Source: Amphibalanus amphitrite
Taxonomy: Eukaryota > Arthropoda > Thecostraca > Balanomorpha > Balanidae
Reading direction: 5' to 3'
Assembly: GCF_019059575.1 (NCBI RefSeq)
Contig: NW_024882929.1
Coordinates: 100,047-164,046, forward strand
DNA: 64,000 nucleotides
Shown: positions 1 through 45,178 of the stretch, piece by piece
How the letters are laid out: each line of letters opens with the position of its first letter
Position numbering within the stretch: the stretch's first letter is position 1
Made by a program: the position numbers and the translations under genes
Notes under the pieces: model-generated
What the model saw: the letters and a program-made list of their open reading frames with translations, nothing else
The model's database searches: none
What the model was told of the DNA's origin: nothing

Positions 1-3000
1 GTTGAACGGCGTGAGACGTTGCCGAAGCCGTTGCAGTCGCGGGTTGTCGATGTCGATGAGGCTCTTGGAGTTCAGCACTGGAACGAGCGGTCGGTGGTCT
101 GTGACCACCTCGAACTGCTGCATGCCCGAGAGGTACATGCTGCACTTCCGACAAGCCCATGCAACTGCCAGCATCTCAATCTCGCAGACGGCGTAGCGGG
201 ATTCCACATCGGTCAGGAAACGAGACCCACACTGGATCAGTTTCCATCGTCCATCTGCATCCTGTTGCCGCAGACAGAAACCCAGCCCTCGTAGGCGAGC
301 GGCGTCGGTCTCCAGGACTGTCCGGCGCCGCGGGTCAAAGAAGTCGAGGACTGGTGGCGAGACCAGCGCCTTCTTCACATCACTGAAGGCTTTGGAGTGC
401 AGCGGCGTCCACACCCACTCGTTCTTCGGTCGCAGGAGGTGTCTCAGAGGCTCGGCGGCGGCCGAGACGTCTGGTGAGAAGTCACCCAGCTGGTTCACGA
501 GACCGAGAAACGATCTGAGGTCCGTGAGGCACGCCGGCTGCGGAAACTCCGCGATGGCTCGCACCTTCTTGTTGTCTGCGGTGTAGCCTGTCTGGTCAAT
601 CTTGAATCCGCAGAACTCCACCTCATTCCCAGCGAAGGAACACTTGTCTGGGTTCAGGGTTATCCCGTGGTCGTCACACCTCTGCAGGATGTTCCACACG
701 TGCTCCAGGTGAGCTGAGTAGCTCGAGTCGTACGCCAGAATATCGTCTACGACTTTGCATGTCTGAGAGATGTCACCGAGAGCAGCGTCGCCTCTTCGGT
801 TGTACTCGTCTCCTGACGAGATCAGACCCATGACGGCACGTTTGTAGCGGAAACGGCCCCATGGCGTGATGAAGCACGTTTTGTCCTGGTCCTCCTCGCG
901 GATGGGGATCTGGTGGTAGCCAGACTTGCTATCCAGCTTCGTGTAGAAGTTTGCACCGCTGCCGATCGAGGCCACAGCGTCGTGCGGCGACCTGACTGGG
1001 TACGCTGGCCTCTTGACGAATCGGTTCAGCTTGGTGAGGTCGACCGTCAGACGGCAGCCAGAGACCTTGCCGTCCGGCGACCGCTTCGCCACCGGCACGA
1101 TGGGGTGGCACCACTCGGTCGGATGCTCCACCGGCTCGATCACGTCACTCTCCAGCAGCTCATCCAGCTGGCGCCGAATGTCGTCACGCCAGCAGAACGG
1201 TACACTGCGAGCTGTGGAGACGGCAACTGGTGTGGCGTCTTCAGTCAACTCGATGGCCATTGAGCCTCCGGACATCTTGCGCAGCTTCGAGGTGACGTCA
1301 AACACACGTGGGAAGGCTTCCTTCATCGCTGAGAAGTGCTTCCGTCGTTCTTCAGCCGATGGCACGCCTTTGCTTACATCCCACGTCGGCTTCAGCGGGT
1401 GCACCTTCTGCGCCTTCCCGGCGTCTTCAAGTGCAGGAGCAGAGCCTCGTTTGACCACTCTGCGGGGTATCTTGCTCTTCCCTGGCATGGTCTTCAGGGA
1501 GCAGACCGCTGGAGCTGGTCTGGAGGTCTCCTCCTCGTCTGAGATGGCAGAACAGATCTGCTGTGGGAACTCCTTGTGCAGTATTCCCAGTCGAACAGCG
1601 TCGTGCCACGACAGCAGCGAGCTGTGCAGCTTCTTCACCACAGAGACGGCTATCGTCCTCTTGATGCTTCCCAGCTGCAGTGCGACTTGGCACGCTCCCA
1701 GGCAGGGCAGTTCTCGTCCGTCCGCTGCGAACAGGCTTCCAGAGGGCGGCGTCAGCTTCTTGACGTTGATGCCCATCTGCTTCGCTGCCTCCAGAGAGAT
1801 AACAGACACCTCAGCGCCTGTATCTGGCGTCCATGTCGTTTGCTGCCTGCGACCGTCACTCCGATGCAGCAGAATCTGGATCTGCGGAGCACGCGTCGTG
1901 TGCAGGCCTTGGATCATGCAGTCTCGGTGCTGCTGGTCCACTGTCTGTCTGGCAGGTGCAGATGCCGCTCGCGCCTTCATTGTGACGAGCGACACACGTC
2001 TGCCTCCATCGGACCTCCGCTGGGTCCGGTCTGTGCTCGCCGCCGGAGCGCGCGAGCGACTGGCGCTGCGACCGCGGCAGACAGACGCGAAGTGGCCTAC
2101 CTTGCCACAGGCTCGGCAGGTCCTCTTGACGGCCCTGCAGTCGCCGGCGCTACGGTGAGCTTCACCACCGCAGCGGGGGCACGTCTTCTCAGCCGACCGG
2201 TCTCTCGGGCGACCGCGGCTGCGCTGGTACTGAGAGACCTTCGCCAGGGTCGAGCCAGCTGGCTCACGAATGGCTGAGCTGTTGGAGGCGGCATTCTCTG
2301 ACGCTCGGGCGATATCAACTGCCTTCTGAAGCGTGAGATCCGGCTCTTCCAACATTCTGCGGCGTGCTTCTTCGTCTCGCGTGCCGACAACGACTCGATC
2401 TCTGAACCTGTTGTCCTGGCAGTGGTGACAGAAATCACAGAACGATGCAATCTCTTTCAATCCACAGAGAAAATCATCCACTGTTTCGCCCGCTTCCTGT
2501 ACTCGCATGTAAAAATCTCTCCGATCGATGATGACGTTACGCTGGCGGCGCAGATGCGTCTGCATCGCCGTGATGATGGTGTTCATGTCAGCGTCTTCGG
2601 GGATTGGCAGGCCGTACCTGACCACCCTGGTCCAATCATCATCAAGCAGAGCGAGTAGGGCTGCCTTCTGCTCGGGCGGGGCTAGCCTGTTGACGCCAGT
2701 CAGCAGACTGTAGCCGTGAAATTTCTGTCGCCAGGATTCAAACTCCTTCAGTGACGCCGATGACGACAGCTGTGGAGCGGGAGTCGCTGATGCCGGCAGT
2801 CTGGGCGGTAGACTGACGGCTGCGCTCGTATCGGCTGGGGAAGCCGCTGCAGTAGCCGCGGCTGCAGCGCCGGCCCCTGCCGCCGGCCCGGCCCACATCC
2901 GTTCCATTACGGCCACCATACGCTCCTCCCGCTGCTGGCTTTGCCGCTGAGCTTCTTGAGCCAGCTCCAGTTGCTGGGCGAGGAGTTGGGTGAGGGCTCC

Positions 3001-3030
3001 CAGGTCTACCGGCTTGCCTTCCTCCGTCAT
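1..3030 (-). CDS. gag-pol polyprotein, partial (Ty3/gypsy)
   Basis: This is a retroelement polyprotein that would assemble a particle (gag) and copy the element's RNA (pol). The frame opens at an ATG at 3028-3030, with first residues MTEEGKPVDLG, about 75 bases inside the LTR. Base 1 falls in the same frame after 1010 codons. Parts in order: a gag region with a glutamine-rich N-terminus; a zinc knuckle CRACGKVGHFASVC (about 2080-2120); a protease active site DTGAEVSVIS (near codon 400); and a reverse transcriptase with WCHPIVPVAKRSPDG, FYTKLDSKSGYHQI and the catalytic box VVDD (near codon 759). RNase H-like sequence with TDHRPLVPVLNSKS follows near the left edge. The catalytic box reads VVDD where many relatives have Y-x-D-D. 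Gag and pol share one frame, so no frameshift signal is needed between them. Confidence 0.88.
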   Translation of the reverse strand, partial: MTEEGKPVDLGALTQLLAQQLELAQEAQRQSQQREERMVAVMERMWAGPAAGAGAAAAATAAASPADTSAAVSLPPRLPASATPAPQLSSSASLKEFESWRQKFHGYSLLTGVNRLAPPEQKAALLALLDDDWTRVVRYGLPIPEDADMNTIITAMQTHLRRQRNVIIDRRDFYMRVQEAGETVDDFLCGLKEIASFCDFCHHCQDNRFRDRVVVGTRDEEARRRMLEEPDLTLQKAVDIARASENAASNSSAIREPAGSTLAKVSQYQRSRGRPRDRSAEKTCPRCGGEAHRSAGDCRAVKRTCRACGKVGHFASVCRGRSASRSRAPAASTDRTQRRSDGGRRVSLVTMKARAASAPARQTVDQQHRDCMIQGLHTTRAPQIQILLHRSDGRRQQTTWTPDTGAEVSVISLEAAKQMGINVKKLTPPSGSLFAADGRELPCLGACQVALQLGSIKRTIAVSVVKKLHSSLLSWHDAVRLGILHKEFPQQICSAISDEEETSRPAPAVCSLKTMPGKSKIPRRVVKRGSAPALEDAGKAQKVHPLKPTWDVSKGVPSAEERRKHFSAMKEAFPRVFDVTSKLRKMSGGSMAIELTEDATPVAVSTARSVPFCWRDDIRRQLDELLESDVIEPVEHPTEWCHPIVPVAKRSPDGKVSGCRLTVDLTKLNRFVKRPAYPVRSPHDAVASIGSGANFYTKLDSKSGYHQIPIREEDQDKTCFITPWGRFRYKRAVMGLISSGDEYNRRGDAALGDISQTCKVVDDILAYDSSYSAHLEHVWNILQRCDDHGITLNPDKCSFAGNEVEFCGFKIDQTGYTADNKKVRAIAEFPQPACLTDLRSFLGLVNQLGDFSPDVSAAAEPLRHLLRPKNEWVWTPLHSKAFSDVKKALVSPPVLDFFDPRRRTVLETDAARLRGLGFCLRQQDADGRWKLIQCGSRFLTDVESRYAVCEIEMLAVAWACRKCSMYLSGMQQFEVVTDHRPLVPVLNSKSLIDIDNPRLQRLRQRLTPFN

Positions 3031-3094
3031 TGCGAGAAAAGCGCGCTAAAACCGACGAAAAAATGCTATATTTAATGATAAAAAGTAAATTATA

Positions 3095-3106
3095 CCGATC
3101 GCGCCA
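3095..3106 (-). other. tRNA primer-binding site
   Basis: The minus strand reads TGGCGCGATCGG immediately after the LTR's terminal AACA. A TGG start complements the CCA end of a tRNA, as expected for a first-strand primer site. I did not assign the tRNA. Confidence 0.6.
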
Positions 3107-3386
3107 TGTTATGGTTTTACATTTAAGTCTACGTTAATAATGGTTCGATAGCAAATTAATTATCGTCGCGATTCCACCGCCCCAGATGCACACGCGCACT
3201 CCCGATGTGAACTGTATTGAGTCCGGCTGACGACTGCACAACAATACTCTTTACTCCAGGACGCCGGAAGCTGCCGGGCGGCACAGCCTACCATCAGGCG
3301 CCGGCCGGCGCCGCGGCGGTTGGCAACAGCTATCAGCTGACTGCGCCGGCATAGCTCGTGCCGGCTCAGTAGCACGCATCACAACA
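3107..3386 (-). repeat. 5' LTR of the gypsy element
   Basis: On the minus strand this 280-bp block begins TGTTGTGATGC and ends CCATAACA, so it has the TGTT...AACA termini typical of LTRs. It lies directly upstream of a primer-binding site and the gag start. The matching 3' LTR is outside the window, so the borders rest on the terminal bases alone. Confidence 0.7.
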
Positions 3387-4686
3387 GTGGCCGGGCGAAT
3401 GAAGGCGCCCTTCTGGCCTCCTTAAAAGATAATATTTCACATACATATGACACTTTCATCAGTTGAAAGGTACCGCTACTACAGACCAATATACCCTGAC
3501 TACAGACACATTGTGGGAAATAGAATAAGAAGCATGATTTTAACGTTCCTTTGAGGACAGACCGATATACGAACAAACTAACTCCCCTATACTCTTGTTG
3601 GACCACCCTCTAGCACCCTCACCCCTTCCCCCAACCCCACCATCATCTCATCACGCCTCCCACCACACAGTGGCGCGCCACACTCGTCAACAGGGCGGCA
3701 TAATTGACTCCCGACAGTATGATTACAGAGTCCCGACGGCGGCGATCGCAGGTTGTCATCCTAACTACCAGCTGTCAGCAGAAGCTGCCGCTGCGGACTG
3801 CCGCAGCCTCCAATCGGCGCCAAGGCGGCGGATAATAACAGGTCCAAAGACGGGCGGCCGTGGACGGCGTGACGTCACGTGGGTAGCAGACGGAGAGGGA
3901 GGGGGTAGTGCTGATCGGAAAGAGTGGGAGAGACATTAAAGTATGAAGAGTAAAAAGAAAGAAGCAGGGAAGATGGAAATATTGAAAAGATAATGAAAAA
4001 AAAACAAGAAGACAAGGTTACCGTTTTATTTTTCAAAATATTCGAAGGCATAGTGCTTAACGTCCAACTCACAAAATTTAAGAGCGAGCCCATAACCCAT
4101 AAAAGAGGCTGCTATGAATATGCACCGACGAAATAAGTAGGAGAATGGAAGAAAAAAAGGAGAAGGGAAGGAGGGAAAACCAACAATAACAATGCTTCAA
4201 ATATCAATAGAAAAACACAATTCTAATTTCTAACGAATAGGGTTTGTCTGATTTTCAAACAACCTGCGGTTACAAGATAAATGAAAATGTAAGGTGGCGC
4301 GATTGCACTCAAAACACACGGAACACCCCAACCCCAAAAGAAAACCACAGTGACACGGAGGGACCACATCACAACACAGCCGGCCACGAGCACGGACGGC
4401 CACACGAGCCCGGTCCGAGCCGCGGCGGCGCGCGGGGGCGGCACCACAAAGCGGTCCGGCTGTCAGTGACGGACACAGCGCCGGCCGGGCGGCCGACAGC
4501 CCACATAAATCATCGTCCAACACTAACAGAGCGCGCTCCGCCCGGCCTGTACCCGCACCATCCGTCACCGGCGTGACCCGTGTCACCAGAGCGGTCTGTG
4601 TCACCAGCGCCGACTGTGTCACCAGCGCGCCCCGATGCACGAACACCACTCGGACATACATCGGTTAGGGACTTGGACATACGTTG
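3387..4686. other. Unassigned intergenic stretch
   Basis: No gene or element is recognised here. The stretch goes from mixed sequence through a CpG-rich patch (about 3660-3890), an A-rich part (3930-4240) and a GC-rich part (4370-4660). Near 4577-4635 there are three imperfect copies of a unit of about 18-19 bp built on GTGTCACCAG. Open frames here have no recognisable protein features. Confidence 0.5.
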
Positions 4687-8880: not shown

Positions 8881-10945
8881 ACGATAATTTTATATGCCAT
8901 TTATTCTTGTCGTGTCGTAAAACTGATTTACGGCTGGGGCGGCCGGCCTCTGACGGACGGAATGCGGCCAAACAGAAGCGGCGCGATGACTGCACGCCGC
9001 CACCGCCACCGCGGCGGGCAGCTGCACCACTGGTGCAGAGCTAGTGCCACCACTGGTGCCGACGCCAACCCGGCTACTGTGGCAGCCTGTGGTGGTGCAT
9101 CTGCCATCAGTGGTGCCAGCAGTATCACCAGTGGCATCACTAGTGGTGGTGCTGCCATCGCTGCATCGCGGGCGGGGGCCTATCATGGTGATTCATGTCT
9201 GCCGGTTTATCTGTCTGTCTGACTGTTCGTCTACCTGTCTGTAATCTGTATGTCTGTCTGTGTCTCTGTTGGTTGGTCTGCGCTGTGGGGGTATTTTCGT
9301 CAATGAAGAATCGTCAGTACCATGACTAAACTGTTTCTATATATGCTTTCTGTCTCCTCATCGCAGATTTTACCAGAAAACAGATGCCAGTGAGGAGTAG
9401 GTACAAATATACACAATTTATCATGTGTTATCGAATATATTATTGACCATCTTCATCTTGTGATAAATGTAAGCTTTGGTGGAAGTCCACCGTCCTGAGT
9501 CGCGTATCTCTGGCAGATCTGAGTTCATTTTCCATTCCTGCCAATCGGTCGTCCATCTCCCGTCGGCTGTTCCTGTTCATCACTCACTCCCTCATCTGCA
9601 TCAGTTCCAAAAACTGTCAGCCGGTGAGATGCCACGTGACAAACTCAGCGTGACTCTCACAGTGTGCACCTGCCATCACTGCCAGCTCACCAAGATAAAG
9701 TGACGTCTCCGGCGGACAATTTGAAATGTAAAAACCGCCTGCTCGGCTCGCCACTGTCAATGTCCGTTGCATTGTTTTACGGTGGTTACGTCGAATTTAT
9801 GACCGAAACTTCAAAGCACCAATGCCGACAAGAGGTGATTCCAATAATTTAGTGGCTCCGTCCTTCGGCCGTCCGCCGCGACGAGATGCATGCCGTAGAC
9901 AATGCAGCTCGATAAATTCGACTTGTCCAATGGCCATTGGTCCGTTTTTACGGCCCATTTCTCTGCCATTGCACGGGAGGTCAAACTGCCATCACATGAC
10001 AGACCGAAGGGGAGTTTTTCGTTTGGTTTTCTAGTCTGCAGAATGTGCCAAAGGAAAGTGATTAATCAATGCGACAACAAAGAAAGGCCGCCGCCGGCAC
10101 TGCGGGCTCGGCGGTGCCACCGACATTCGGAGCTATTTGTTATATCTTGTGCTGCAGCTCCACATGACATGACCCGGTCACGGACACAGGGGGCGTTGAA
10201 CCCGCAGAAGACGGACGGCCTGTCCAGGCTATTGACAGCCACATTTTTAACAGACGGGTTTCTGAATGCTCTCTTAGTCTTCGATGACAGGTTTCTTTTA
10301 ACAAGTAGCAAGCAGGGAGGTGAGCTGACCGATATTTCGTCACAGCTGCCTACCTTTCAAACTACCAGCTTCCGCTACGGCTTCCGCGAAAATCCAATGC
10401 CATCATCGATCCTTGGACGTCGAGGATGACTCCCTTCTTTCCAGTTTCCCTTTCTTGCCCTAAGCTTACCTTTCTTTAGGCCTAGGGTAAAACTGTTTCC
10501 CAAAATACTAACGGGACGGCTACTTCTTATTTTCACATCCATTCCTTGTCTTGCTTTCCTTTCTTCCAGTTCCATATTAAGGATAAATGGAACTTCAACT
10601 AAACATCTATTAAACCCCTTCCTACCCTCGCTCCCCCCTCTGCCCGACCCCAAGGGCGTGTTCCTCATCCATCGCGGAGTGTTGTTCCTCATCCACCGCC
10701 GCCGCCTGCCCCTGACGCACTTCCCATGGATCAAAGCGTCCGGTCGGGGCCGCGGCCATTGTGATCGGAGCGGCTCTGGAATGGGCCGTCACTGTCACCC
10801 GCCCGTACCGTGTGTCAACGTCACTGCCCCAGTGACGTCACTGGTGGAGACTGCGTGACGTCACTGGTGACTGAGCGACCAATAGTGACTGCAGTCCGCC
10901 CTTCAACGCTCCTTACAACTAGACGGACAAAGCGTTGACATTTAA
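8881..10945. other. Unassigned intergenic stretch
   Basis: This holds a low-complexity GGTGC/CACCACTGGTG-rich patch (about 9000-9165) and a CTGTCTGTCTG patch (about 9208-9262). At 10825-10870 two TGACGTCACTGGTG phrases lie about 30 bases apart. A 175-codon open frame at 9902-10429 shows no known domain and is probably chance. Confidence 0.45.
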
Positions 10946-11423
10946 AGGGACCCTCCCACCTTAACATTAGATTTGAGTTGAGATAGCCAAAATGGGGTCC
11001 CTGGCTCACAATTACCGGTTTCGGCACTCACAACATCGAGAAATGCCTTAAATCGGAAATATTGAATTTCAAAATTGCAGCATTTTGATTCAGAGGGGCT
11101 AATGCTTAGGAATACCCCTCTGAATGTGTGACGTCAGCGCAAATATCTAACGATTTGTAAATGTTTGACTAAAACGTTTTGTAGCACGCGGTGGTATATG
11201 CTATTTGCGCGCAACATCTGCCGCAAACGCCGCACTTCTAAAATAAAGTCGCTAGAAACAGCGGAGATACCAAAAAAGTAAACAAAAGTAAAAGTCTAAT
11301 ATCTTGAAAACCGGTGAATATTTTTCGGTGAAATTTGGTATATATTCGTTTTCGCTCTTTCTGAACCGAGCGACATCACTTTCATGCCAATTCATAAACC
11401 TTTTTGAAGGTGGGAGGGTCCCT
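10946..11423. mobile_element. TTAA-flanked MITE 1
   Basis: This 478-bp element is bounded by a perfect inverted repeat of 17 bp, AGGGACCCTCCCACCTT and its reverse complement, each next to TTAA (10942-10945 and 11424-11427). A TTAA target is typical of piggyBac transposases. It encodes no protein. Its right TTAA doubles as the left TTAA of the next element. Confidence 0.75.
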
Positions 11424-11427
11424 TTAA

Positions 11428-12910: not shown

Positions 12911-12941
12911 GTATTGTCAATATTGCGAATATTGACAATAC
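12911..12941. repeat. Perfect 14-bp hairpin
   Basis: GTATTGTCAATATT, loop GCG, AATATTGACAATAC. Its right arm is also the outer end of the larger hairpin that the hAT element at 12966 splits. Confidence 0.85.
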
Positions 12942-12965
12942 AGTGTGGCCTGCCAGCAATGCAGG

Positions 12966-13257
12966 CAGGGGCGGATCCAGAAAATCTCCAAGGGAGGGGC
13001 CATTAGAAACCAGGAGGCCCCCATAATCCCACCTGTTGGAGGCCCCATCTTCCCACTTGTTGGCCCCCCCCCCCAAAAAAAATGCGTCTATTGAGCTTAT
13101 CTAGCTGTTCAGGCAACATCTCAACATGAATAGCCACTTTATTTTCAGGAGGCCCCCTTTTCAGCTTTTTAACTTTTTATTTTATTTTTGAAAAAAAAAT
13201 CGGCCAAGGGGGGGGGGGCATGGCCCCCATGCCCCCCCCCCCTTGTATCCGCGCCTG
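12966..13257. mobile_element. hAT-type MITE inserted in a hairpin
   Basis: This 292-bp element starts CAGGGGCGGATCCA and ends TGTATCCGCGCCTG (inverted, near-perfect). It is flanked by an exact 8-bp duplication, AATGCAGG at 12958-12965 and 13258-13265. The ends and duplication length are those of hAT. The interior has C and G homopolymer runs and no coding frame. The element at 26769-27013 shares the GGCGGATCCA end. Confidence 0.88.
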
Positions 13258-13348
13258 AATGCAGGTCAGGATGACCTGACCTGCATTGCTGGCAGGCCAC
13301 TCACTCACTGTATTGTCAATATTCGCAAAAAAATATATTTTTCGGTTT

Positions 13349-14859: not shown

Positions 14860-15574
14860 TAATCGCCCATAGGCGTAAGAACAGGGGGGGGGCCGGGGGG
14901 GCCATGGCCCCCCCACTTTCGGAGGTGGGGGGGCCAGCAATGTTCACTGGCCCCCCCACTTTTTGCTGACTTAAATGTCTGTCTGTACCTACCACTCGGT
15001 ACCCTAAACACCAGAACTTGACGACTATTCAGCTTGCCCTTTAATGAAGATTCCCTTTTGTTCTACAGAGTTATTGACCGCAATTTCCTTCACTCAATGA
15101 AAAAAAAAAACATATCAGAGACAAAACTGTGAGTCCTGATGGCAACATTTTGTTGAATACGAGGCGCGGGACAGCGAGCACTGAAAAGGTATAAGACAAT
15201 ACTAGCGCGGTGCAGGAGAATGCGTATACAAACGACCAGCGCTTGACCGGATCTGCTTGGAGTCGACATAGTTCGTCAAAGGCGTAGTAGTTGGGGGCCA
15301 GGGTGACCACTGACCGTGCCCCCTGCCTCGGTTCAAACAGGCTAGGGGGCCAGCAATGTCTGTATCTGCCCCTCCCCCTTCCACTTTCAGTGCAGTGGCG
15401 GTCGCACAGGGGGGGATCAGGCCAGGGCCATACCCTTCCCCCTCCAAAGGCTAATCAGGGGGCCATCATATCATTTGGACCCCCCAAACAACCAATGGGC
15501 CCCCATGGGAGTATGGGGCTCTGGCCCTTATTCGATTGTCACGAGGCTCAAGCAACCCACGCCAGCTATTAACA

Positions 15575-16595
15575 GCTCCCATACCAGTCTTTGAGGGTCC
15601 TACACTGATCTCGGAGGGCCCTTCAGTGGCGGTCAAGCGCCCACATTGACCGCTGAGAACCCACATTGACCTCTGAGGGCCTTCCACTGGCATTTGAGGG
15701 CTCCTAAACCGGTCTCAAAAGCCCAGTCGGCGTCTGAGGGCCTCACTCTGGCCTCTGGTGGCCTCATTTCTGTCTCTGGGGTCACAAGACTAACCTTTAG
15801 GTGCCTCTGAGGCCCAACACTGAATTCTGAAGACCCGATGCCGGCCTCTAAGGGTCCGCATCGGCCTCTGAGGATCCATCCTGGCCTTAGGGGTCCAACG
15901 CCGGCCCATGCCGGTCTTTTAGGGCTCCACACTGACCTCTAAGGGCCCATGCTGGCCTGTAAGGACCCACATTAGCCTCTGAGGGCCTTGCACAGGATTC
16001 TAAAGACCTGATGCCGGGGTCTGAGGCCCATATTGGTTTTTGAGGGCTTTCTGCTGGTCTCTGGGGTCCAACATCGGTCCATGCCGGTATTTTAGGGTCC
16101 CACACTGACCTCTGAGGGCCCATGCTGGCCTGTAAGGACCGACATTAGCCTCTGAGGGCCCCGCACTGGATTCTGAAGATCTGATTCCGGTCTCTAAGGG
16201 TCTGCATCGGCCTCTGAGGGCCCACCTTCGCCTATGAGGGCCCTCCGCTGGTCTCTTAGGGTCCCACACTTATCTCTAAGGGTCCATGCTGGCCTGTAAG
16301 AACCCTAGCCTCCGAGCCCCCCCCCCCCCCCACTTCATACTGAAGACCCGATGCCGGCCTCTAAGGGTCTGCATCGGCCTCTGAGGGCCCATATTGGCCT
16401 TAAAGGGCCATCTGCTGGCCTCTGGGGTCCAACACCGGCCCATGTCGGTCTGTTACGGCCCCACACTGACCTCTAAGGGCCCATGCTGCCCTGTAAGGAG
16501 TCAAGGACCCACATTAGCCTCTGATGGCCCAAGTCAGTCGGCATCTAAAGGTCTCAAACTGCCCTTTGCAGGCCCTGTACTGGTCTCTGAGGGCC
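15575..16595. repeat. 21-bp minisatellite with higher-order repeat
   Basis: This is a degenerate tandem array whose unit resembles TGGCCTCTGAGGGCCCACA(N)2, about 21 bp. A longer repeat of about 165-176 bp is superimposed: the phrase GAAGACCCGATGCCGG or variants recurs near 15829, 16003, 16175 and 16341. Because 21 is a multiple of three, the minus strand stays open over long stretches and reads as repeated heptapeptides (for example ALRGQCG). These frames are by-products of the repeat. The array resumes for about 65 bp right of the piggyBac insertion (17653-17720). Confidence 0.85.
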
Positions 16596-16599
16596 TTAA

Positions 16600-17648
16600 C
16601 CCTCGCCGGCCGAGGGGGGGGGGGCGGGTGCAGCCCCTCCATAGGTTTATTTTTCGCGATAGCTCCGAACACGCCGGCGATAGAGAGCTGAAGCTTGGCA
16701 TACCTGACCTTTCAATCAAGCCGGATCTTTTGACACCAACCGCATTTTCGGGTCAGATCAGGTTATGACCTCATAGATCAGACCTATGAGGTCATAAGTG
16801 AGCCTCTGCACGGTCTTCAGATGTCGCAACTTCGCAACGCCCTCACTGCCAGAGGAGCTTTCACAGGGAAATGAACCTTGCAGGACTTAGTATCCATTAG
16901 GAGTGTCACAACTTGTACATCTCGGATTTTCCTTAAGGTCATATGAGGTCGGGTCATTTTCGTGACCTCACCATTAGGCATAAGTCAATGGGGATAAAAT
17001 GAAAACTCTTTTTCTGGTGCCGGGAACGATCTCCAACTATCTCAAGCACACCGAATCGTGATTTCATGCACTCCTTGCAAGATTCGATGCGTCACTTTTG
17101 CAATGTTGACCTTGCGCGACGTCATTTATGTCGTTATAAGGGTCATATTAGTTTTTCGTCAATAACTCCCGATCAAATTGAGCTAGCGAGTCGGGAAAGC
17201 CACCAATGGACTCAGGAAGACCCGAAAAATCGAATGGTATGCGACATGACCTCCTTCGACCAATTTCGTGACCTAGGGGCGCTGACCTGACCGTGACCCG
17301 AGGTCAACACCCTAAGTTTACCTCACCCAAACAAAAATAATATCATCCGACGCGCCTGGGAGAGGCGAACACGATGATGGCAAAATCGCGGCTCTGCGGC
17401 CGTTTTTTGCGAAGTTATTCGCCAAAAAAGGAACCATACCTTTGGGCACTTGACCTGACCCAAAGGTCACCGATTGATCTAGGACATTAAAATCAGGTAT
17501 CGATCGCTGCGTCTCGTAATGGCGCACACGCTCGTTTTTTTTCCCCGCGGCGCGCTAGCTCCACCTGGGGCGAAAAGGCGAGGGGTCGTAACCGCCCCCC
17601 CCCCCCTCTGCCGGAGCGTATGTAGAAAACCTATAGGTCCGGCGAGGG
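16600..17648. mobile_element. piggyBac-type non-autonomous element
   Basis: This 1049-bp insert begins CCCTCGCCGG and ends CCGGCGAGGG, a perfect 10-bp inverted repeat, and sits between TTAA sites at 16596-16599 and 17649-17652. TTAA targets plus ends starting CCC are the piggyBac signature. It splits the 21-bp minisatellite. The interior has an inverted repeat GACCTCATAG/CTATGAGGTC near 16767-16793 but no transposase frame. Confidence 0.85.
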
Positions 17649-18142
17649 TTAAACTGGCCTCTGAGGGCCCAGACCGGCCTTTAAAAGTCCCACACCGGCC
17701 TCTGATGTCAATCAGCCCAGTTGTAGTGGTCGCTGAAATAAAACCTCTTAAAAACGTTACAGGCCTGGCTGAGCCTAGCTGGGCCGTTCATGCTGTTTTT
17801 TATAGGTATAGGTATTGAAAAGACTCGCTTTGCACGTTTCAAGCTCGCTCGTAATGAAAAAGGCGCTGGATGCCTCTGGAATTTGCATGGGTGTCAACGG
17901 CTGCGGAGGACAGGGGAATGCGTCCATCAGTTTGAGTTTCTGGACGGGAGTCTTCCTGAAATTTTAACCTATTTTGTTTTGTTTTTGTCTCTATTTTTTT
18001 ACCTCTGAGCATGTTTGCGAAAACAAAGTGGCCGAAATCCGAGGAGAAATTGGATTTTGGGGGTAGGTTAGGTTTTAGACCTCTGGGAGCCTGCCCCCCC
18101 CCCCCCCACTTTCGAAAACGTTCCTACGCCTATGTAATCGCC

Positions 18143-19084: not shown

Positions 19085-21035
19085 ATTTACGTCATGGGGC
19101 ACATCCACATAGTTCAGTGGCTATTCCGCACCCTGCAGTCGCAAAGATAAAAAAAACGGTCATTTAGGTCAACATGCACACATGCACACGCACTAACCCA
19201 CACACGCCTGCTCTTTAAAGTACACCTAGCCGACGCCGCCCCGCTGCTTCATAAGCAGGTGTTGCCTGAGTTCTTTCTTAAAGCCTCCAGTAAAGTTTCG
19301 CAACTCACGTGGCAAAGCATTGTAGGTGGTAACGATCGAGTGCTTAAAACGACGCCTGCCTGACTCCGATCGACTCGCCGGCATGACTAAATGGTCGGCG
19401 TTCCGTGTGGTACGATGGTGAACATCACCACGAGTGACTAGGTCGCTGGCGATCGACTCGGGCTCCGATGTCACTAACATGCGCTTCAGTAGGATAAGAC
19501 CGCGGTATAGATACAGGTGCTCTGCAGTAAGCCAGTCAAGACGGTCCAAAACGTCGCTGATGTGATCGTACCTCCTTCGACCGGATAAGACACGGGCGGC
19601 AAAGTTCAACACCTTCTGAATGCGCCTCATCTGGGTCTTGTTACACACGCCGTATACGACCAAGCAGTATAAAATGCGCGAAATGACAAGTCCCTGAATG
19701 AGCGTCAACAGGGTTGACTGAGGCAGACTGTGCCTGCTGTGGCTCAATCCGCACAGGATGCCAGTGCATTTTTGCACAACGCTGTCTACATGCGGGGTAA
19801 AAGTCATATGCTGGTCGAAAGTGACACCCAGGTTTAGGACGGCGGCGGAAGCGGCGACTTCGGCATCCATTAACTTGATGTTGACTGTGGGGAGACGTTG
19901 AATGTTTTGTCGCGAGCCAAGAATGATGAACTGGGTCTTTTGTGCGTTAATTTTGATGCCGTTTTTGCCGAACCATCGAGAAAGGAGGGCCAGGTTGTGC
20001 TCCATGTGCTGCACCAGGGAGCCGATGTCGCCGATCCCACCGCTGACTGCCACCTGGGTGTCGTCAGCGTATTGCACGACGTGAGCGCCCTCCGTGTACA
20101 AAGGTAAATCGTTGGCATAAATCGAAAATAAAAGCGGTCCGAGCGCTGAGCCCTGATACGTGCCGATCGGGTTAGGAAGCGCCTCTGAAGTCACAATCCG
20201 CCCTGAGGCGGCATCCTGAAGCTGCACCCGCTGGTAGTGACCGTCAAGATAGCTGCTAAACCAGCGGGTGTCGACGCCATATAGTTGAAGTTTGTGCAGC
20301 AGTGGGTCATGTGGAATCACATCAAAACATTTGGAACAGTCGAGAAGACATAAAAGCGTGATTTGACTGCGGTCCATAGCCGTAAACACGTGATCAGTGA
20401 CGGATAAAAGCGCCGTGTCGGTCGAGTGGTTATATCTAAAACCGTGCTGAGATGACGAGAAGAGGTGATGAGCGGCGAAGTAGTAAAAGAGCTGCTCGTA
20501 GACAACGCGTTCGACGATTTTCGCTATGGTGGGTAAAATAGAAATGGGCCGATAGTTCGCGACCTCGGTAGACTTGGACGATTTCTGAATTGGATGAACA
20601 AGCGCCACCTTCCATGAGTCCGGGACACGATGCGACACAAGACTGCTGTTTACAATGCGAGTGATGACATGACAGATTGAAGGCAGACAGATCTTAATGA
20701 AGCGGATACACAGTCCATCGGCGCCACACGCGGCAGAGTTACTCATTCGGGAAAGCACACGACACAGGTCATCTGGTGAGATGGGCGCCACCTGGAACCG
20801 GCCGGTGGCCACCCGAGGTAGGCGGACCGGCAGCTCCGGTCCGGACGTGTCCACCTGACGGGCCGTGTCGGGGCCTACAGACACAAAGTACCGGTTCAGC
20901 GCGTCTACGTCTGCGCTGGGAGCAGACCGGGTCGGCCTGCTCGAACCGATGATAGGCCGCGCCACGCGCCACATACCGCTCGGTCCCACCTCCCGCAGCC
21001 GCCGGTCCAGCTCCTCACGGCTGTCGCGCCGGATC
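19085..21035 (-). mobile_element. 5'-truncated LINE (Jockey/CR1 group), copy 1
   Basis: A non-LTR retrotransposon lies on the minus strand, cut at its 5' end so that no endonuclease remains. The 3' untranslated part (19085-19225) shares the phrase GGAATAGCCAC with the 3' end of the LINE at 35960-38560. Flanking GTCTATGT at 19077-19084 and the GTCTATGTCTATGT run at 21036-21056 are a plausible target duplication. 5' truncation is usual for LINEs because reverse transcription stops early. Confidence 0.85.
19226..21034 (-). CDS. LINE reverse transcriptase, 5'-truncated but open
   Basis: This encodes the reverse transcriptase part of a LINE ORF2, which copies element RNA at a nicked target. The frame is open from the truncation point (first residues IRRDSREELDRR) to a TAG at 19226-19228, about 600 codons. 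RT blocks are visible in order: NYRPISILPTIAKIVERVVY; QHGFRYNHSTDTALL; DCSKCFDVIPHDPLL; TYQGSALGPLLFSIYAND; and the catalytic box YADDTQ near codon 321. A C-terminal region with QKVLNFAARVLSGRRRYDH is shared with the plus-strand copy. No true start codon is known because the 5' part is missing. The lack of stops suggests recent insertion. It is probably not functional alone without the endonuclease. Confidence 0.92.
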   Translation of the reverse strand: MRRDSREELDRRLREVGPSGMWRVARPIIGSSRPTRSAPSADVDALNRYFVSVGPDTARQVDTSGPELPVRLPRVATGRFQVAPISPDDLCRVLSRMSNSAACGADGLCIRFIKICLPSICHVITRIVNSSLVSHRVPDSWKVALVHPIQKSSKSTEVANYRPISILPTIAKIVERVVYEQLFYYFAAHHLFSSSQHGFRYNHSTDTALLSVTDHVFTAMDRSQITLLCLLDCSKCFDVIPHDPLLHKLQLYGVDTRWFSSYLDGHYQRVQLQDAASGRIVTSEALPNPIGTYQGSALGPLLFSIYANDLPLYTEGAHVVQYADDTQVAVSGGIGDIGSLVQHMEHNLALLSRWFGKNGIKINAQKTQFIILGSRQNIQRLPTVNIKLMDAEVAASAAVLNLGVTFDQHMTFTPHVDSVVQKCTGILCGLSHSRHSLPQSTLLTLIQGLVISRILYCLVVYGVCNKTQMRRIQKVLNFAARVLSGRRRYDHISDVLDRLDWLTAEHLYLYRGLILLKRMLVTSEPESIASDLVTRGDVHHRTTRNADHLVMPASRSESGRRRFKHSIVTTYNALPRELRNFTGGFKKELRQHLLMKQRGGVG

Positions 21036-21059
21036 GTCTATGTCTATGTCTATGTCAAT

Positions 21060-21432: not shown

Positions 21433-21682
21433 CATAGGCGCGGGAGCCGGGGGGCAGTGGGGGCAGCTTGCCCCCCAACTCTGGGGCCGTGGGGGCGGTG
21501 CTCCCACAGCTTTGAGACGGAATACCACACTTTTTTTGCAAATGTTTCCTTTTTTTGTTGAAAAAGCCGAGGGGTGAAAAATAAGTGGCCTAAAACCGGT
21601 GAGAAAACTAGATTTGGGGGTACCCTAGGTTAATCTCTATTATGGTGTGCCCCCCAGTCGGAAAGTAGTTCCCGCGCCCCTG
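21433..21682. mobile_element. hAT-type MITE, short relative of the 3.3-kb composite
   Basis: This 250-bp element starts CATAGGCGCGGGAGCC and ends AGTTCCCGCGCCCCTG (inverted with a few mismatches). The 8-bp target duplication is TCTCAAAG at 21425-21432 against TCTCAAAA at 21683-21690. Its interior matches the right end of the element at 14868-18134. It does not code. Confidence 0.8.
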
Positions 21683-33571: not shown

Positions 33572-35958
33572 CTGAAAACAAGACTCGCAATGAGCTGAAC
33601 ATTTGAGACAAGTGCCGAGTAAAAACCGACTTTGGTGATGAATGTCCCGATTGTTAAGGGACATTAACGCGACTTTATGGTATGTCATTTGTCATGGTCC
33701 ATGCCAGGAAAATTACTAAGAGGAGGTTTCGCTTATTCTATACGATATAATCACCAGTTGCGAGATTTTCCATTTGCCCGCTTACTGGGAGTCTGTTGAG
33801 TCGATAAGATAGGAATTCACCGCTTGATATTCTCATAGCTGTACATGAATATGAATCAGTCTTCGTTGATACCATGTCAAAACGATGGTAGGCATTCCAC
33901 AAATAACGCCAAAAAGTTTATCATTCTAGCTCAGCGTTTGCACATTCTTACCCTGTTGTGGACCCAAACGGAGAAGGCTAATCTTGCCTTTCTGATCATA
34001 CATCTGCTGGAAACCTTCAGTGGGAAAAGTCAACGAAGTTCAACACTGCCAGAATGTTTTTTTTTCTGTTGAGAAACGGTAAAATCCGTGTAGCACATGC
34101 ATGCCACTCAGCCTCAGCAGATTTACAAACAACGCGAAAAAAAAAACAACCGAACAACTGAACAAGAATGTTTCTTGCACCTGCTACACGTTCGCAGTTC
34201 TTGACTCCATGTAAAACGCATTAGTGCACTGAAGAACACTTATGGTAGCCCGCAAACAGCGACCGATATCGCCCAAGAAACGGTTTGGCTTGTACCTGCA
34301 TGCGCTTACACACTACCGACATGCCGATTACGAAAGGAAGCCCTTGGTTGCAAATTGGATACACCTGTGATACAAGTCAATTGCGAAATTTCCAGACGAA
34401 GTGGGATACTCAGCGATACGGAAAAAAGTTTATGCATGTGTGCTTACTACTCTCCGGCAAGAAATCTCTAACATAGCCTGGAGCCCTACCAGCACTATCT
34501 TGTAGTGTATTTGAAGGTATTTGAAGTTCAAATCGCATGACTCCTTGGTTCTTAATGCCTACATTCCTATCGGTTGCATCCTGTCCCCACTATCCCCACA
34601 CCTCAAAGCCCACTGACAGTAGCTCACCAGGTGAACTCAGTCCCGTTTATCCCAATGCCCCGGCCAGTCGCTCAGCACGTGCCACTTTCTCTGTGGGACG
34701 TCCAGTGACGGATGTGACGGGCGGCGGTGACGGATGTGACTGATCTGACGGCTGTCGGCCGGCGCCGATGACCGATCGACGCCCCGCTGACCCGTCATGG
34801 GTACAGAAAGCGACCCGTCGCGGGGAGAGAGGAGAGGCGCCTACAAGAGGACGACCGGCACTATCAGGAGGGCCAGCAGGTTTGGTGCGATGTGGGGAAA
34901 AGCCAGCAGAATGTCTGACGTCATTGATGGATACATGACGCCATGTGGTAAATGTTGAGAGTTGCGAGACGAAAGAGTTTGGACGCTTTTTTGAAAATTG
35001 AATGCATTTCCACGAAAACATAAACACTGTATAGGTGTCAAAACACAATGCTGACAGCTGCATATAACTTTTAAGCATTAGTTTCTGTCCACTAATTAAC
35101 AGCGCTCTCCGCTGATCTCATTATCATTAGTTACCGACAACTTGCCAAATAAGTTACGATGAGTAAGTTATTAAATAACAGCACAAGAGCTAATCCAGGC
35201 ATTACCAGTTTCTTATCAATTTTCGGCACTGGCCATCATCTTCTATTAGTATTCCTGATGCCCACATGCCAACCACATTTATCACTATTGACTGGCGATG
35301 CCTACAAGCCATAAATTACAGACAATGGCCATCAATCATTGAACGGTGATTTTCTGCAGCTAGATGTTCCGATAATGTTCATTGCTGAGGCGAATCAGGG
35401 TTCCGACAACTGCGGGTCGCCCCTAACATTAGTCACTACTGGCCATTCTGCTGACATGATGCAAGAATAAATGGAATTGAATAAATTGAGAATTAAATTG
35501 ATTATTTTCAATTTGTAATTCACTTTCAAGTCATCTCGAGATGATCTCGTACTCCGAATGGTTGGACGTAAAAATATTATCTTCATAGCAAGAGTGCCCT
35601 CGCTTCCCCCACACTAGCAAGCAGCAAGGTCCATCCGGCCCCTCTTTCAGCCAGGCAGAGGCTGCGAAACATCCAGTGTAACCGGCATCAGCCCTGCCCT
35701 CCTCTCTCCCGTTCCCTGTCCCTCGTGCCGCCCCCACGCTGCCGCCACCGCAGCTGCATTGAAAGATGATAAATCACCTCCGACTATTAAATCGTGATTC
35801 ATATACCCCTTTGTCGGCGCCGCCAATCAGCCCTCATTCTTATCTTTGCCGACAAAATGATTGGCCAGCCAGAAAAGCGCCGTTATTTTTACCGCGCTGA
35901 TGGTTCCATCCCTCAGCTGCCTCGATGAACTGTGATAAATCACCCGACCAAAACGTGC
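33572..35958. other. Unassigned stretch with GATA-rich patch
   Basis: No gene is recognised. At 34695-34750 GACGGATGTGACGG phrases repeat. At 35740-35950 a CpG-rich patch carries TGATAAATCACC twice (near 35767 and 35933), CTTATCT, GATTGGCC and CCAATC, which could be a GATA/CCAAT-type regulatory element. Confidence 0.35.
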
Positions 35959-35959
35959 A

Positions 35960-38560
35960 CTCTCTGCCAGCGGTACCCCGCACAAGAAGAATCGATTGTC
36001 GATTGTCGGCGACATCAACATCAACACAAGAGACACCAACAGCACATCAGCTGCGAGACTCCGGGAGTTTTTCGCCGCCTACTCCATGGAGCAGCACGGC
36101 AGCGGACCGACATTCCGATCATCTGGTTCCGCGATCGATATTATCTGCACGAACCGGGGCGCGGAGCGAGTCGGCACGGTACACTGTCATTACAGCCCAC
36201 ATGACTGGTCCCGGGCCACGATCTCGCTGCCTGACCTGCAGCCGGCGCGGTGCGCGGTGACGGGCCGGTGCTGGCGGCAGATGGACGCGGCGGACGTCAA
36301 CAACCGGCTAATGAATGTGGACTGGAGCCCAATTTATGACAGTGCCGACCCTGCAGCACAGTGGGACTACTTCCTTTCAAAGACTATGCCTATTTTAGAC
36401 AGTGCAGTTCCCGTGAAGCGAGTTAAAATACGGAACCCTACGGCACCCCCCGTGACAGCCGCCACAAAAGAGTTGATGGCCCGTCGGCGGGCAGCGCTGC
36501 GTGTCTCGGACCGTGACAGTTACCGGGAGCTCAACCGTCAGGTCAGGTCAGCCGTCCGTCGCGACACACGGGAGGACATTGAGCGGCGGGTACGGGAGAA
36601 CGGACCGAGCTCGCTGTGGCGCAGTGTGCGGCCCGTCATATCTGGGAAACGGACCACCAGACAGCTGCCAGACACAGACGTGGACAGTGTGAACCAGTAC
36701 TTTGCGAGTATTGGTACCGCCACTGCCCGGCAGGTGGACACGGCGGGCCCGGCGCTGCCCGTGCGACTGCCGCGAGTGTCCACTGGCCGGTTTCAGCTGT
36801 CACCTGTTACGCCGGGGGAACTGCGGCGTGTGATAGGCCGTATGCGGAGCAGTGCGTCGTGTGGAGCAGACGGACTGTGCGTACGCTTTGTGAAACAGTG
36901 CATTGACTCATTGTGTCCTGTCATTACTCATATTGTCAACTCGAGCCTCATCAATCATACTGTCCCCAGCTCTTGGAAACTCGCTCTGGTGCACCCTGTA
37001 CAGAAGACGGATAAATCCACCGATGTGTCTAACTTCCGGCCCATTTCTATTCTTCCGACAATCGCGAAAATTACAGAACGCGTAGTTTATGAACAGTTGT
37101 ACTCCTACTTTACTAGTCACTGCCTATTCACATCTAGTCAACACGGTTTTAGATCGAACCACTCTACTGACACGGCGCTTTTAACTGTAACTGACAGAGT
37201 GTTCGAGGCCATGGATTCCCGTGAGGTAGCCCTTCTATGCATGCTAGACCTGTCAAAATGTTTTGATGTCGTGCCACATGAGAGACTCTTGGATAAGATG
37301 CGCCTGTACAATGTTGACACTCGGTGGTTTCAGAGTTACCTGACCGGACATTATCAGAGAGTTGTCGCCCAAGATCAGCGTGGCTACCGCACCATGTCAG
37401 CGTCACTGCCCAACCCTATAGGCACCTATCAGGGAACTGCCCTCGGGCCATTACTGTACAGTGTGTACGCGAATGATATGGCCCTGTACGCTGACGGTGC
37501 GACCATAGTGCAGTATGCGGACGACACCCAGGTTATCGTGAGTGGGAGACCCGGAGAAATTGGCACTCTTACTGCATCCATGGAACTCAATCTGTCACTT
37601 CTGTCGGCATGGTTTGGCAAAAACGGTATGAAAATTAACGCTCAGAAAACACAACTCATGGTCCTCGGGACTCGTCAAAATCTCAAGCAGCTCCCCACGG
37701 ATGGAATCAAATTTATGGGTGCCACTGTCTCCGGCTCTCCCACGGTGCGGAATCTGGGTGTTGTGTTCGACCAGACGCTGTCTTTTACCGCCCATGTTGA
37801 CGACGTCGTACGCCGCTGCACAGGCCTGCTGATTGGTCTTACGCACAGCAGACACCATTTACCTCGAACGACGCTCAGCACACTAGTCAATGGTCTAGTC
37901 ATCTCTCTCGTTCGGTACTGCATAAGTGTTTATGGATCGTGCAATGCTACTCAGATAGGGCGTCTACAGAAAGTGCTTAACTTCGCGGCGCGAGTGATAT
38001 CAGGGCGACGTAAATTCGACCATGTTAGCGACGTGCTGCGCGATCTGGAGTGGCTCTCTGCCCGTAATTTGTACCGCTACCATTCACTGACGCTTCTAAA
38101 GCGGACCCTGGTCACTGACCAGCCCGAGTCACTCGCCACTCACCTCATGTACAGACGTGATGTGCATCAGCGCAGTACGCGACAGGATGGCATGCTTCAC
38201 CTGACAAGTATTCGATCAGAAGCAGGAAGGAGGCGTTTTACCTACGCGACTGTGACTGATTTTAACACCATACCAGCGGATATTCGAGCCATGAACCTGA
38301 GCCGATTCAAAAAGGAGCTGCACAAGTACCTGCTGCTGCAGCAGATGCAGCAGCAGTAGAGACGCCTTGGACGACACTGATGTGATAGAACTGTATGTAT
38401 TGAGTATGATGTGCAATGAGTGTTGTGATGTTTGTATGCATGTGATCCGCTCACCTCATTCACGTCTAGTCTTTATATGTACTTGACACGGGCTCTGGAA
38501 TAGCCACACATGTGTGGAATGAACCTAAGAAGTGCAATAAATAAATAAATAAATAAATCG
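35960..38560 (+). mobile_element. 5'-truncated LINE (Jockey/CR1 group), copy 2
   Basis: A non-LTR retrotransposon on the plus strand retains the tail of the endonuclease, the whole reverse transcriptase and a 3' untranslated region that ends in an (AATA)n tail (about 38534-38560). Its 5' border is not sharp; coding similarity begins near 35975. No clear target duplication was found. It is related to the copy at 19085-21035, at roughly two-thirds protein identity by eye, so they are sister families rather than copies of one source. Confidence 0.87.
35975..38359 (+). CDS. LINE ORF2: endonuclease tail and reverse transcriptase, open
   Basis: About 790 codons run without a stop to TAG at 38357-38359. 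The first part is the C-terminal end of an APE-type endonuclease (LSIVGDININTRD, then SGSAIDIICTN), which in whole elements nicks the target. RT blocks follow: NFRPISILPTIAKITERVVY; QHGFRSNHSTDTALL; DLSKCFDVVPHERLL; TYQGTALGPLLYSVYAND; and the catalytic YADDTQ near residue 507. Then comes AWFGKNGMKINAQKTQ and a C-terminal region with QKVLNFAARVISGRRKFDH. It ends in a glutamine run, LLLQQMQQQ. The usual endonuclease start is missing through 5' truncation, so the frame has no genuine start codon. No RNase H follows. Its openness argues for a recent insertion. Confidence 0.92.
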   Translation, partial: TPHKKNRLSIVGDININTRDTNSTSAARLREFFAAYSMEQHGSGPTFRSSGSAIDIICTNRGAERVGTVHCHYSPHDWSRATISLPDLQPARCAVTGRCWRQMDAADVNNRLMNVDWSPIYDSADPAAQWDYFLSKTMPILDSAVPVKRVKIRNPTAPPVTAATKELMARRRAALRVSDRDSYRELNRQVRSAVRRDTREDIERRVRENGPSSLWRSVRPVISGKRTTRQLPDTDVDSVNQYFASIGTATARQVDTAGPALPVRLPRVSTGRFQLSPVTPGELRRVIGRMRSSASCGADGLCVRFVKQCIDSLCPVITHIVNSSLINHTVPSSWKLALVHPVQKTDKSTDVSNFRPISILPTIAKITERVVYEQLYSYFTSHCLFTSSQHGFRSNHSTDTALLTVTDRVFEAMDSREVALLCMLDLSKCFDVVPHERLLDKMRLYNVDTRWFQSYLTGHYQRVVAQDQRGYRTMSASLPNPIGTYQGTALGPLLYSVYANDMALYADGATIVQYADDTQVIVSGRPGEIGTLTASMELNLSLLSAWFGKNGMKINAQKTQLMVLGTRQNLKQLPTDGIKFMGATVSGSPTVRNLGVVFDQTLSFTAHVDDVVRRCTGLLIGLTHSRHHLPRTTLSTLVNGLVISLVRYCISVYGSCNATQIGRLQKVLNFAARVISGRRKFDHVSDVLRDLEWLSARNLYRYHSLTLLKRTLVTDQPESLATHLMYRRDVHQRSTRQDGMLHLTSIRSEAGRRRFTYATVTDFNTIPADIRAMNLSRFKKELHKYLLLQQMQQQ

Positions 38561-44900: not shown

Positions 44901-45178
44901 TCCGCCTTTGCCGCGGCCGCGCGCTGGCCTTGCTCCGCTGCGAGCTTGCTTAGCGCGGCTCGGCGGCGGGCTGCGCTGATGGTGGACGACGCTGCGCTGC
45001 CGAAGGTCTCGCTGCGGGTATGACATGCCTGCGAGCTGCGCGTAGATTTAGCGTCACACCGTGCGACCGCCTTTGCGGTCGATTTCGCGTCGGACTTCGC
45101 TTCCGACATCGCTGCGTCGGACTTCGCTTCCGACATCACTCGTTCACTGCACTCGCGTCGGACTGTACGTCCATTCAC
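41927..45178 (-). CDS. BEL/Pao gag-protease polyprotein with integrase zinc region
   Basis: This is a retroelement polyprotein in one long open frame of 1083 codons. From the N-terminus: short MSEAKSDA repeats; an alanine/glutamate-rich coiled coil (about residues 80-150); a DUF1759-like gag region (LDKFSGSALEWPRWIALF, about 237-254); cysteine/histidine zinc fingers (CVVCQGAHDLERC and CFNCLVRDHISAAC, about 464-510); and a retropepsin-like protease (ALLDLGSQVTLV, near 585). An integrase zinc-binding region (KLAHSGAEHVLAHLRHHFW with CMPC) lies toward the C-terminus. The reverse transcriptase is not seen, so this is a broken derivative. An in-frame ATG lies near 45136; the true start is uncertain. 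Confidence 0.9.
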   Translation of the reverse strand: MNGRTVRRECSERVMSEAKSDAAMSEAKSDAKSTAKAVARCDAKSTRSSQACHTRSETFGSAASSTISAARRRAALSKLAAEQGQRAAAAKAELTRQEVERARQEAETQAERARQEAELARQRAALEAQQLADEAERRQLELELLEEEEYDHQSSAVDRQALSRPAAAAPSEPAAQLREPLLPGDRSSRTRDWAEQSSQYGQLVSARPYDDRHQQEARRPLQPVRQQTTPQLPRVTLDKFSGSALEWPRWIALFRALVHDRDDLTDVERLTYLQAHLTGPAKESVRGMLCDSSLYGEALRELEEEFGDPARVIHATMKKLLDSRPVKDGDMSAVTELSRDLRTAVRVLQCLHYDADISAATNVTAVISKLPAALAMKWGEHAVHSGLVRPTLADLDSWLRRYVAAGRVSLTLTGHQQSKAEVNSGESRQRRVYATALAPAAPREVVKPKISAIKAAPVASEEACVVCQGAHDLERCDRFLELTASERAEVAGRNGLCFNCLVRDHISAACPSGTNCGHENCGKRHHTLLHNGGRVFPRRSAAGSAPSPVKHVGTAVVEPPCKVLLQTLPITVHGPAGRCTTQALLDLGSQVTLVTEGLSDRLGISGPIDSLVLSTINGSERLRSRRVSFVIEPVSSGGTRHEIRNAQTTPTLSVTNHAMDWSREKGKWPHLADLDLPSATRGPVEVLLGADVIELIVAREVIDGPPGAPCAVRTLLGWTVTGRAPDRNLPVNKDVHHIRVSEETQDASEVTRWQHVPGSLNSSNIGSRGCSVTEMAPSGEWGQGRAVLSRRPQDRPAAPPRPTERPRDEETAEMRAPACVTRGAEPAINPSRFSSWLRLLRVTAWARRFAHNSRSRAAADRRTGPLTAEELREAERVWLLSTQAEQFGDEIEALQHGRRLPSNSQLHRLNPFLDPNGLLRVGGQLRHAQLDFKVKRRVILPARGDITRLIITDRHKKLAHSGAEHVLAHLRHHFWVISDRAAVKRYTPACMPCRKRSAQPAPPLTGDLQPSKWASRPRAAPPDAHHTDEVTRRPGRRAARRISTGDKGRSASRALACGASSERVPWRRRPSAGGRNGHRHWSL

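Follow-up and report, generated by a model that had tools for sequence, protein, structure and literature searches.

Positions 14868-18134 of the window (the whole 64,000-nucleotide stretch of Amphibalanus amphitrite DNA analysed here) very probably represent a non-autonomous, hAT-like transposon family that carries a minisatellite in its body and an ancestral TTAA insert in that minisatellite, and whose loaded form has been copied as a unit to many sites. This reading draws on the termini, the target duplications, the fixed site of the insert, the history that arms and insert have in common, and a difference of one array unit between two copies.

If the reading is correct, 14868-18134 would be one copy of a large non-autonomous family that makes 8-bp target duplications, and the minisatellite array would belong to the body of that family. 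An ancestor would have taken a TTAA-targeting, piggyBac-like element into its array, and the loaded form would then have spread as a whole to many sites, with transposase presumably supplied in trans. Array length would have changed during the spread, once clearly by exactly one 173-bp unit, perhaps through unequal exchange or slippage. Two points are of general interest: tandem-repeat arrays can spread by riding mobile DNA, and an inert insertion of another transposon class can be carried and amplified by its host element.

Structure of the composite element

An 8-bp target duplication, TAATCGCC, flanks the composite at 14860-14867 and 18135-18142, and the inverted ends (14868-14882 and 18120-18134) are identical at 14 of 15 positions. 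The parts of the composite, together with a related element downstream, are as follows.

14860..14867, no strand: target duplication on the left (8 bp), TAATCGCC; 28/39 other copies have perfect (8/8) duplications that differ from it in sequence
14868..14882, plus strand: left terminal inverted repeat CATAGGCGTAAGAAC; position 11 is G in most copies read
14868..15560, plus strand: left arm of the transposon; contains a diverged second left end, 15277-15380
15560..16595, plus strand: minisatellite array of 20-21 bp units with a higher-order period of 173 bp; left limit approximate
16596..17652, plus strand: TTAA-targeting (putatively piggyBac-like) element, 1,057 bp including both TTAA; perfect 14-base ends
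17653..17715, plus strand: remaining minisatellite units, which keep the register of the array on the other side of the insert; right limit approximate
17716..18134, plus strand: right arm of the transposon; genome search made with 17653-18134
18120..18134, minus strand: right terminal inverted repeat CATAGGCGTAGGAAC (minus-strand reading); 1,478 exact genome copies of the 15-mer
18135..18142, no strand: right 8-bp target duplication TAATCGCC, the same octamer as on the left
21433..21682, plus strand: 250-bp MITE, a separate uniform family with related ends, from its own family search and an end comparison

An exact 8-bp duplication accompanied by inverted ends matching at 14 or more of 15 bases, at most 6 kb apart, was found in two cases in 2,943 order-3 surrogate windows. 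Two units in the real window pass this strict test, namely the composite and a unit at 57634-58156. A looser scan, tolerating one mismatch in the 8-bp duplication and asking for 10-base ends, gave 12 cases in the window compared to 3-7 in six order-2 surrogates; this is barely over chance, and the strict test was therefore adopted.

Autocorrelation of the array peaks at 20, 21, 41, 61, 173 and 82 bp, which led us to conclude that the array is real, with a unit of 20-21 bp and a higher-order period of 173 bp. The insert (16596-17652) has a perfect 14-base sequence, TTAACCCTCGCCGG, at both sides; when the flanks are joined at one TTAA, neighbouring array units come to lie 21 bp apart.

The left arm itself contains a second left end at 15277-15380, direct and diverged (70 identities, 20 mismatches and 18 gap letters, a score reached by 0/1000 shuffles), and a third, weaker copy may begin near 15393. 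Position 15277 was considered as the start of an inner element and dropped: no right end with a duplication pairs with the second left end.

Copies across the genome

The assembly searched comprises 807,550,619 bases (807.6 Mb) in 2,644 contigs. The common 15-base end, CATAGGCGTAGGAAC, occurs exactly 745 + 733 = 1,478 times, whereas the reversed control occurs 1 + 0 times. A left-arm query (14860-15400) gave 1,013 candidates, 40 of which were scored: the window copy and 39 others, whose matches start at query position 5-9 (the terminus is position 9). From a right-side query (17653-18134) there were 1,553 candidates; among the best 40, which were scored and include the window's own copy, 39 matches stop exactly at 18134 and one stops 2 bases short. 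All 39 other scored left-arm places were fetched and, as the best-scored of 1,013 candidates, they are biased toward close relatives.

A perfect 8-bp duplication is present at both ends in 28 of the 39 other copies, or 29/40 counting the window (best of 1,013 candidates), and 28 distinct duplications are represented among the 29; the neighbours L048 and L049 have one in common. The other 11 fetched copies divide into three with unequal bases beside the right end (L023, 3/8; L033, 2/8; L052, 6/8) and eight with no testable right end in the fetched stretch (L024, L028, L031, L042, L043, L047, L054 and L057).

The first-pass annotation had described one transposed unit with perfect duplications and inverted ends, enclosing a minisatellite that in turn encloses a TTAA insert. 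Each part of that description withstood comparison: other sites have target duplications of their own, and the nesting recurs in the window and in other copies. The same annotation had proposed a genome search for the two ends with 8-bp duplications at about 3 kb spacing and for copies holding the same minisatellite. Copies of both kinds were found: 28/39 have perfect duplications, and the array is present in perfect-duplication copies. In several copies the satellite lies inside the termini, between arm and insert, and transposes with them, and the claim of a satellite carried by a mobile element is upheld by the recurrence of arms, array and insert at other sites.

It had also been foreseen that other copies might show the two ends to be separate short elements, in which event the 8-bp duplication would be a product of chance. 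A related 250-bp element with such ends is indeed present in the window and abundant, and the left arm holds a second left end. However, the same arms, array and insert recur with other perfect duplications in 28/39 copies, so that both ends recur as a pair. The 100 end places listed include 21 pairs of neighbours that point toward one another at up to 10 kb (1.4-8.2 kb), compared to 2 pairs facing outward and 0 facing the same way; the inner left end is without a matching right end and duplication; and the chance rate is that of the surrogate windows, 2 in 2,943. Together these observations render separate short ends extremely improbable.

A different possibility is that segmental duplication, or transport within some larger carrier, spread the copies, rather than their own ends. 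The bases CGTTGAC flank each of five copies (L024, L028, L031, L042 and L054); the three of these that were compared show 96-97% similarity across 2.1-2.3 kb including the flank, and are therefore part of a larger repeated unit. The neighbours L048 and L049, with their one duplication, also point in this direction. For the family as a whole such spread is nevertheless very unlikely, given 28 distinct duplications in the 29/40 perfect copies and the unrelated flanks of near-identical copies.

Without foreign inserts the outer element measures 2.7-3.3 kb; it is thus a longer non-autonomous element, rather than a MITE. When IMG/VR and GTDB contigs were scanned for the ends, the array and the insert, there were either no matches or only matches in or beside phage or archaeal coding sequence, which were judged to be due to chance.

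The TTAA insert

The copies were chosen by the left arm alone, with a query that does not contain the insert. Among the 39 other copies the insert is found at one site, with both ends in 32/39 and with the 5' part only in 5/39; the first 20 copies have it at the same site in 20/20 cases, three of them with the 5' part only. L041 is without the insert, and L043 ends before the insert site. The five copies with only the 5' part are those with the common CGTTGAC flank, and given that flank they probably go back to one event. The 5' TTAA is no longer intact in some copies, where it has become TCAA.

Pairwise distances between copies are correlated for left arm and insert (r 0.66), left and right arm (0.84), and insert and right arm (0.71), with 0/2000 permutations reaching the observed value in each case; 16 of 21 sequences were used, five being left out for incomplete parts. 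Arms and insert therefore have a joint history. The fixed site in nearly all copies, combined with the correlated distances, shows that the TTAA insertion preceded most of the observed spread and that the nest moved as a single piece. The insert is common to nearly all copies read, and is no late, private hit on the window copy; amplification of the whole nest had not been foreseen by the first-pass annotation.

The insert is also mobile in its own right. A search with the insert gave 7,082 candidates, of which 40 were scored. Flanks were read at 20 insert places: 9 are in the array site of the composite, 8 at one site in another repeat, and the remaining 3 each at a different TTAA site.

Further TTAA elements were seen in copies of the family. 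Some have hit a TTAA that flanks the old insert, on the 5' side in L019 and L042 and on the 3' side in C390, C2540 and C173; others lie elsewhere, in L016, L022, L035 and L041. In L016 (near position 890 of the oriented copy) and L041 (near 870) two different TTAA elements occupy the same left-arm TTAA.

Single-TTAA arrays

If the insert arrived in a pre-existing array, the empty site should read as the two flanks joined at one TTAA, GGGCCTTAAACTGGCCTCTGAGG. This sequence has 79 exact places in the genome, and 849 with up to 3 mismatches, compared to 1 for the reversed control. The right side was read at 4 of the 79 exact places, and all four have a single TTAA in an unbroken array, which continues and is followed by other DNA instead of the family's right arm. 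On the left side, read at one single-TTAA place, 221 bp of array match the stretch of the composite that immediately precedes the insert site at 73%; upstream of that array is DNA that ends in TTAA and resembles another TTAA element. A sister lineage of this array thus has the insert-free state.

PiggyBac elements excise precisely at TTAA, and the single-TTAA arrays could accordingly be derived rather than ancestral, the insert having left and the TTAA having been restored. Against this, 79 exact places would require many excisions, or one excision followed by wide spread, and at the 4 places read the array runs past the site and then gives way to other DNA. We regard excision as unlikely.

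No clean insert-free member of the composite family was found among the copies read. L041 has both family ends and a perfect duplication, and has neither insert nor TTAA; it was rejected as a clean empty site since the TTAA is missing too, and a deletion between units could have taken the insert. A short end pair, C12 (2,022 bp), tried as a possible insert-free copy, still carries the 3' end of the insert. We also gave up dating the insertion from the divergence of the array, since its best-matching stretches are 74-93% alike and the duplication is too short to discriminate.

Array length and recent movement

Among copies with perfect duplications, left arm and insert are separated by distances that lie near 520, 600-640, 690, 850, 1,020-1,035 and 1,070-1,100 bp. 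Five distances are larger (1,349 to 3,753 bp), with foreign DNA present in four (L016, L019, L040 and L044); the fifth belongs to L055. Array length was compared in 25 of the 40 copies, chosen as having no evident foreign DNA within the array; 24 of them have complete arms. For 17/24 of these the nearest neighbour by arm sequence has an array within 30 bp in length, against 26% in permutations (0/5000 reach the observed value).

Over 2,980 aligned bases L026 and L032, which have unrelated flanks, show 4 substitutions; their alignment also has four gaps of 1-3 bases and a single 173-bp gap, which is one higher-order array unit. Flanks are also unrelated in L034 and L046, separated by 5 substitutions and small gaps, and in L027 and L034, separated by 9 substitutions and small gaps. 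So few substitutions between copies with unrelated flanks show that the family has moved recently. Independent insertions of one array, some just a few substitutions apart, constitute a natural experiment on the gain and loss of units after copying.

A broader notion is that minisatellite arrays pass between transposon lineages and that mobility is a main route of satellite spread in this genome. It is suggested by the presence of one array in at least two repeat lineages (the composite family and the single-TTAA lineage), by other transposon-like units that carry arrays of their own (57634-58156 and, as read by eye, a unit inside L041), and by the gain or loss of whole higher-order units on copying. 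We put it forward tentatively, as possible rather than probable.

The 250-bp element

The first-pass annotation took 21433-21682 for the empty form of the composite, a view that did not survive. A search with this element gave 1,886 candidates, and 39 other full-length matches were listed, 96-99% identical over approximately the same 250 bp. Short, non-coding, uniform and present in many copies, the element answers to the description of a MITE, and it constitutes a uniform family of its own, kin to the composite at the ends only. The further proposal of the first-pass annotation, a short MITE that took up or grew the array, stays a conjecture. Its duplication matches at 7/8 positions (TCTCAAAG/TCTCAAAA). 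The right end aligns with that of the composite with 77 identities, 19 mismatches and 23 gap letters (0/1000 order-2 shuffles), and the left end with 48, 11 and 9, respectively, a score that 5/1000 order-2 shuffles reach in this G-rich sequence. Such related ends would fit mobilisation of both by a common transposase.

Two further pieces from this search are one copy on C531, split by another copy: at G000:C531:459639-460154 the 250-bp MITE is inserted, in opposite orientation, into a copy of itself.

Superfamily assignment

We infer the hAT-like and piggyBac-like identities from target size and termini. The 8-bp target duplication of hAT elements is present in the window and in 28/39 other copies. 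hAT termini follow the consensus YARNG; the composite has 15-base ends and begins CATAG, with T at position 3 where the consensus has A or G, whereas the terminus of the 250-bp MITE, CAGGG, fits. The TTAA insertion with duplicated TTAA that characterizes piggyBac elements is seen in the window, in other copies and at other TTAA sites. PiggyBac termini start with CCY, a start that the insert termini, CCCTCGCCGG at both ends in inverted repeat, also fit. Since TTAA is a target of other superfamilies too, Kolobok among them, the piggyBac assignment of the insert is putative. A Pfam scan of 10 ORFs, nine of them in the composite, gave no match to a transposase and one sub-threshold match (Dynein_attach_N, E 0.021).

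Might the outer element belong to another superfamily with 8-bp duplications, such as P? P-type elements make target duplications of 7-8 bp, CATAG departs from YARNG at position 3, the duplications have no strong common motif, and no transposase was matched among the ORFs scanned; the related MITE, however, ends in CAGGG, which fits hAT. On balance we consider an origin outside hAT improbable, and retain the term hAT-like.

Comparison with known elements

Satellite-bearing non-autonomous transposons are established: they include, among others, miDNA4 of Xenopus tropicalis, listed as a Tc1-mariner MITE with an internal satellite motif (PMC9659126). MiDNA4 and the composite are alike in being non-autonomous DNA transposons inside which a satellite amplifies; unlike the Tc1-mariner MITE, the composite makes 8-bp duplications, encloses a second transposon and has an array of about a kilobase with a higher-order unit of 173 bp. 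A foldback element of Drosophila virilis, Tetris, has 220-bp repeats in long inverted ends and 3 structurally complete copies reported (PMC4079207). Tetris resembles the composite in its internal tandem repeats, its 8-9 bp target duplications, the ends it has in common with a MITE (DAIBAM), and in that no autonomous source was found; the composite differs from this foldback element in having one internal array and short ends.

Helentrons belong to the rolling-circle class. In Crassostrea gigas they are reported to carry satellite-like arrays (PMC7492417). These Helentrons are, like the composite, non-autonomous mobile elements that disperse tandem arrays genome-wide; the composite, unlike them, has inverted ends, 8-bp duplications and an insert of another class.

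Non-autonomous elements of piggyBac type duplicate TTAA, have termini starting CCC and occur in many copies. The insert resembles them in all three respects, and differs from other such elements in being mostly seen locked inside, and amplified with, another transposon (9/20 places read).

Our literature search found no paper that joins minisatellite, MITE, TTAA and piggyBac, which in itself says little. What the present data add is a combination: a family with 8-bp duplications, a higher-order minisatellite, a fixed and co-spreading element of another class, and array change by a whole higher-order unit.

Other nested elements

The window holds a second nest. Its outer unit, 56707-58974 (2,268 bp), is flanked by perfect 8-bp duplications, TTCCATAC, and has inverted ends of 12 bases, TAGAGATGCCAC. 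Inside it lies the 523-bp unit 57634-58156, with ATGAAATT duplications, ends CAGGGATGCGGAGCCG, and CGGCTC / 41-bp minisatellite arrays near both its ends. The family's array in L041 is interrupted (at approximately 2675-4662 in the oriented copy) by a further hAT-like unit, some 2 kb long and flanked by AAGTCGGC duplications, which was read by eye; it carries a minisatellite-like stretch of its own, beginning GGAGGGCGCCAATAGG (also by eye).

Upstream of the composite, TTAA flanks a unit at 10942-11427 whose ends are AGGGACCC. The interior of this unit, 10946-11424, matches an insert at a TTAA in copy L035 at 94%, which makes it a mobile TTAA element of another kind. At 12930-13322 there is a larger inverted-repeat element, with arms starting TATTGACAATACAGTG (the outer arms were read by eye), and within it, at 12966-13257, a hAT-like unit of 292 bp with AATGCAGG duplications. 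Elsewhere in the window, 35939-38356, 19229-21037 and 41930-45178 comprise two RVT_1 reverse-transcriptase ORFs and one reading frame in which DUF1759 occurs together with an integrase zinc-binding domain.
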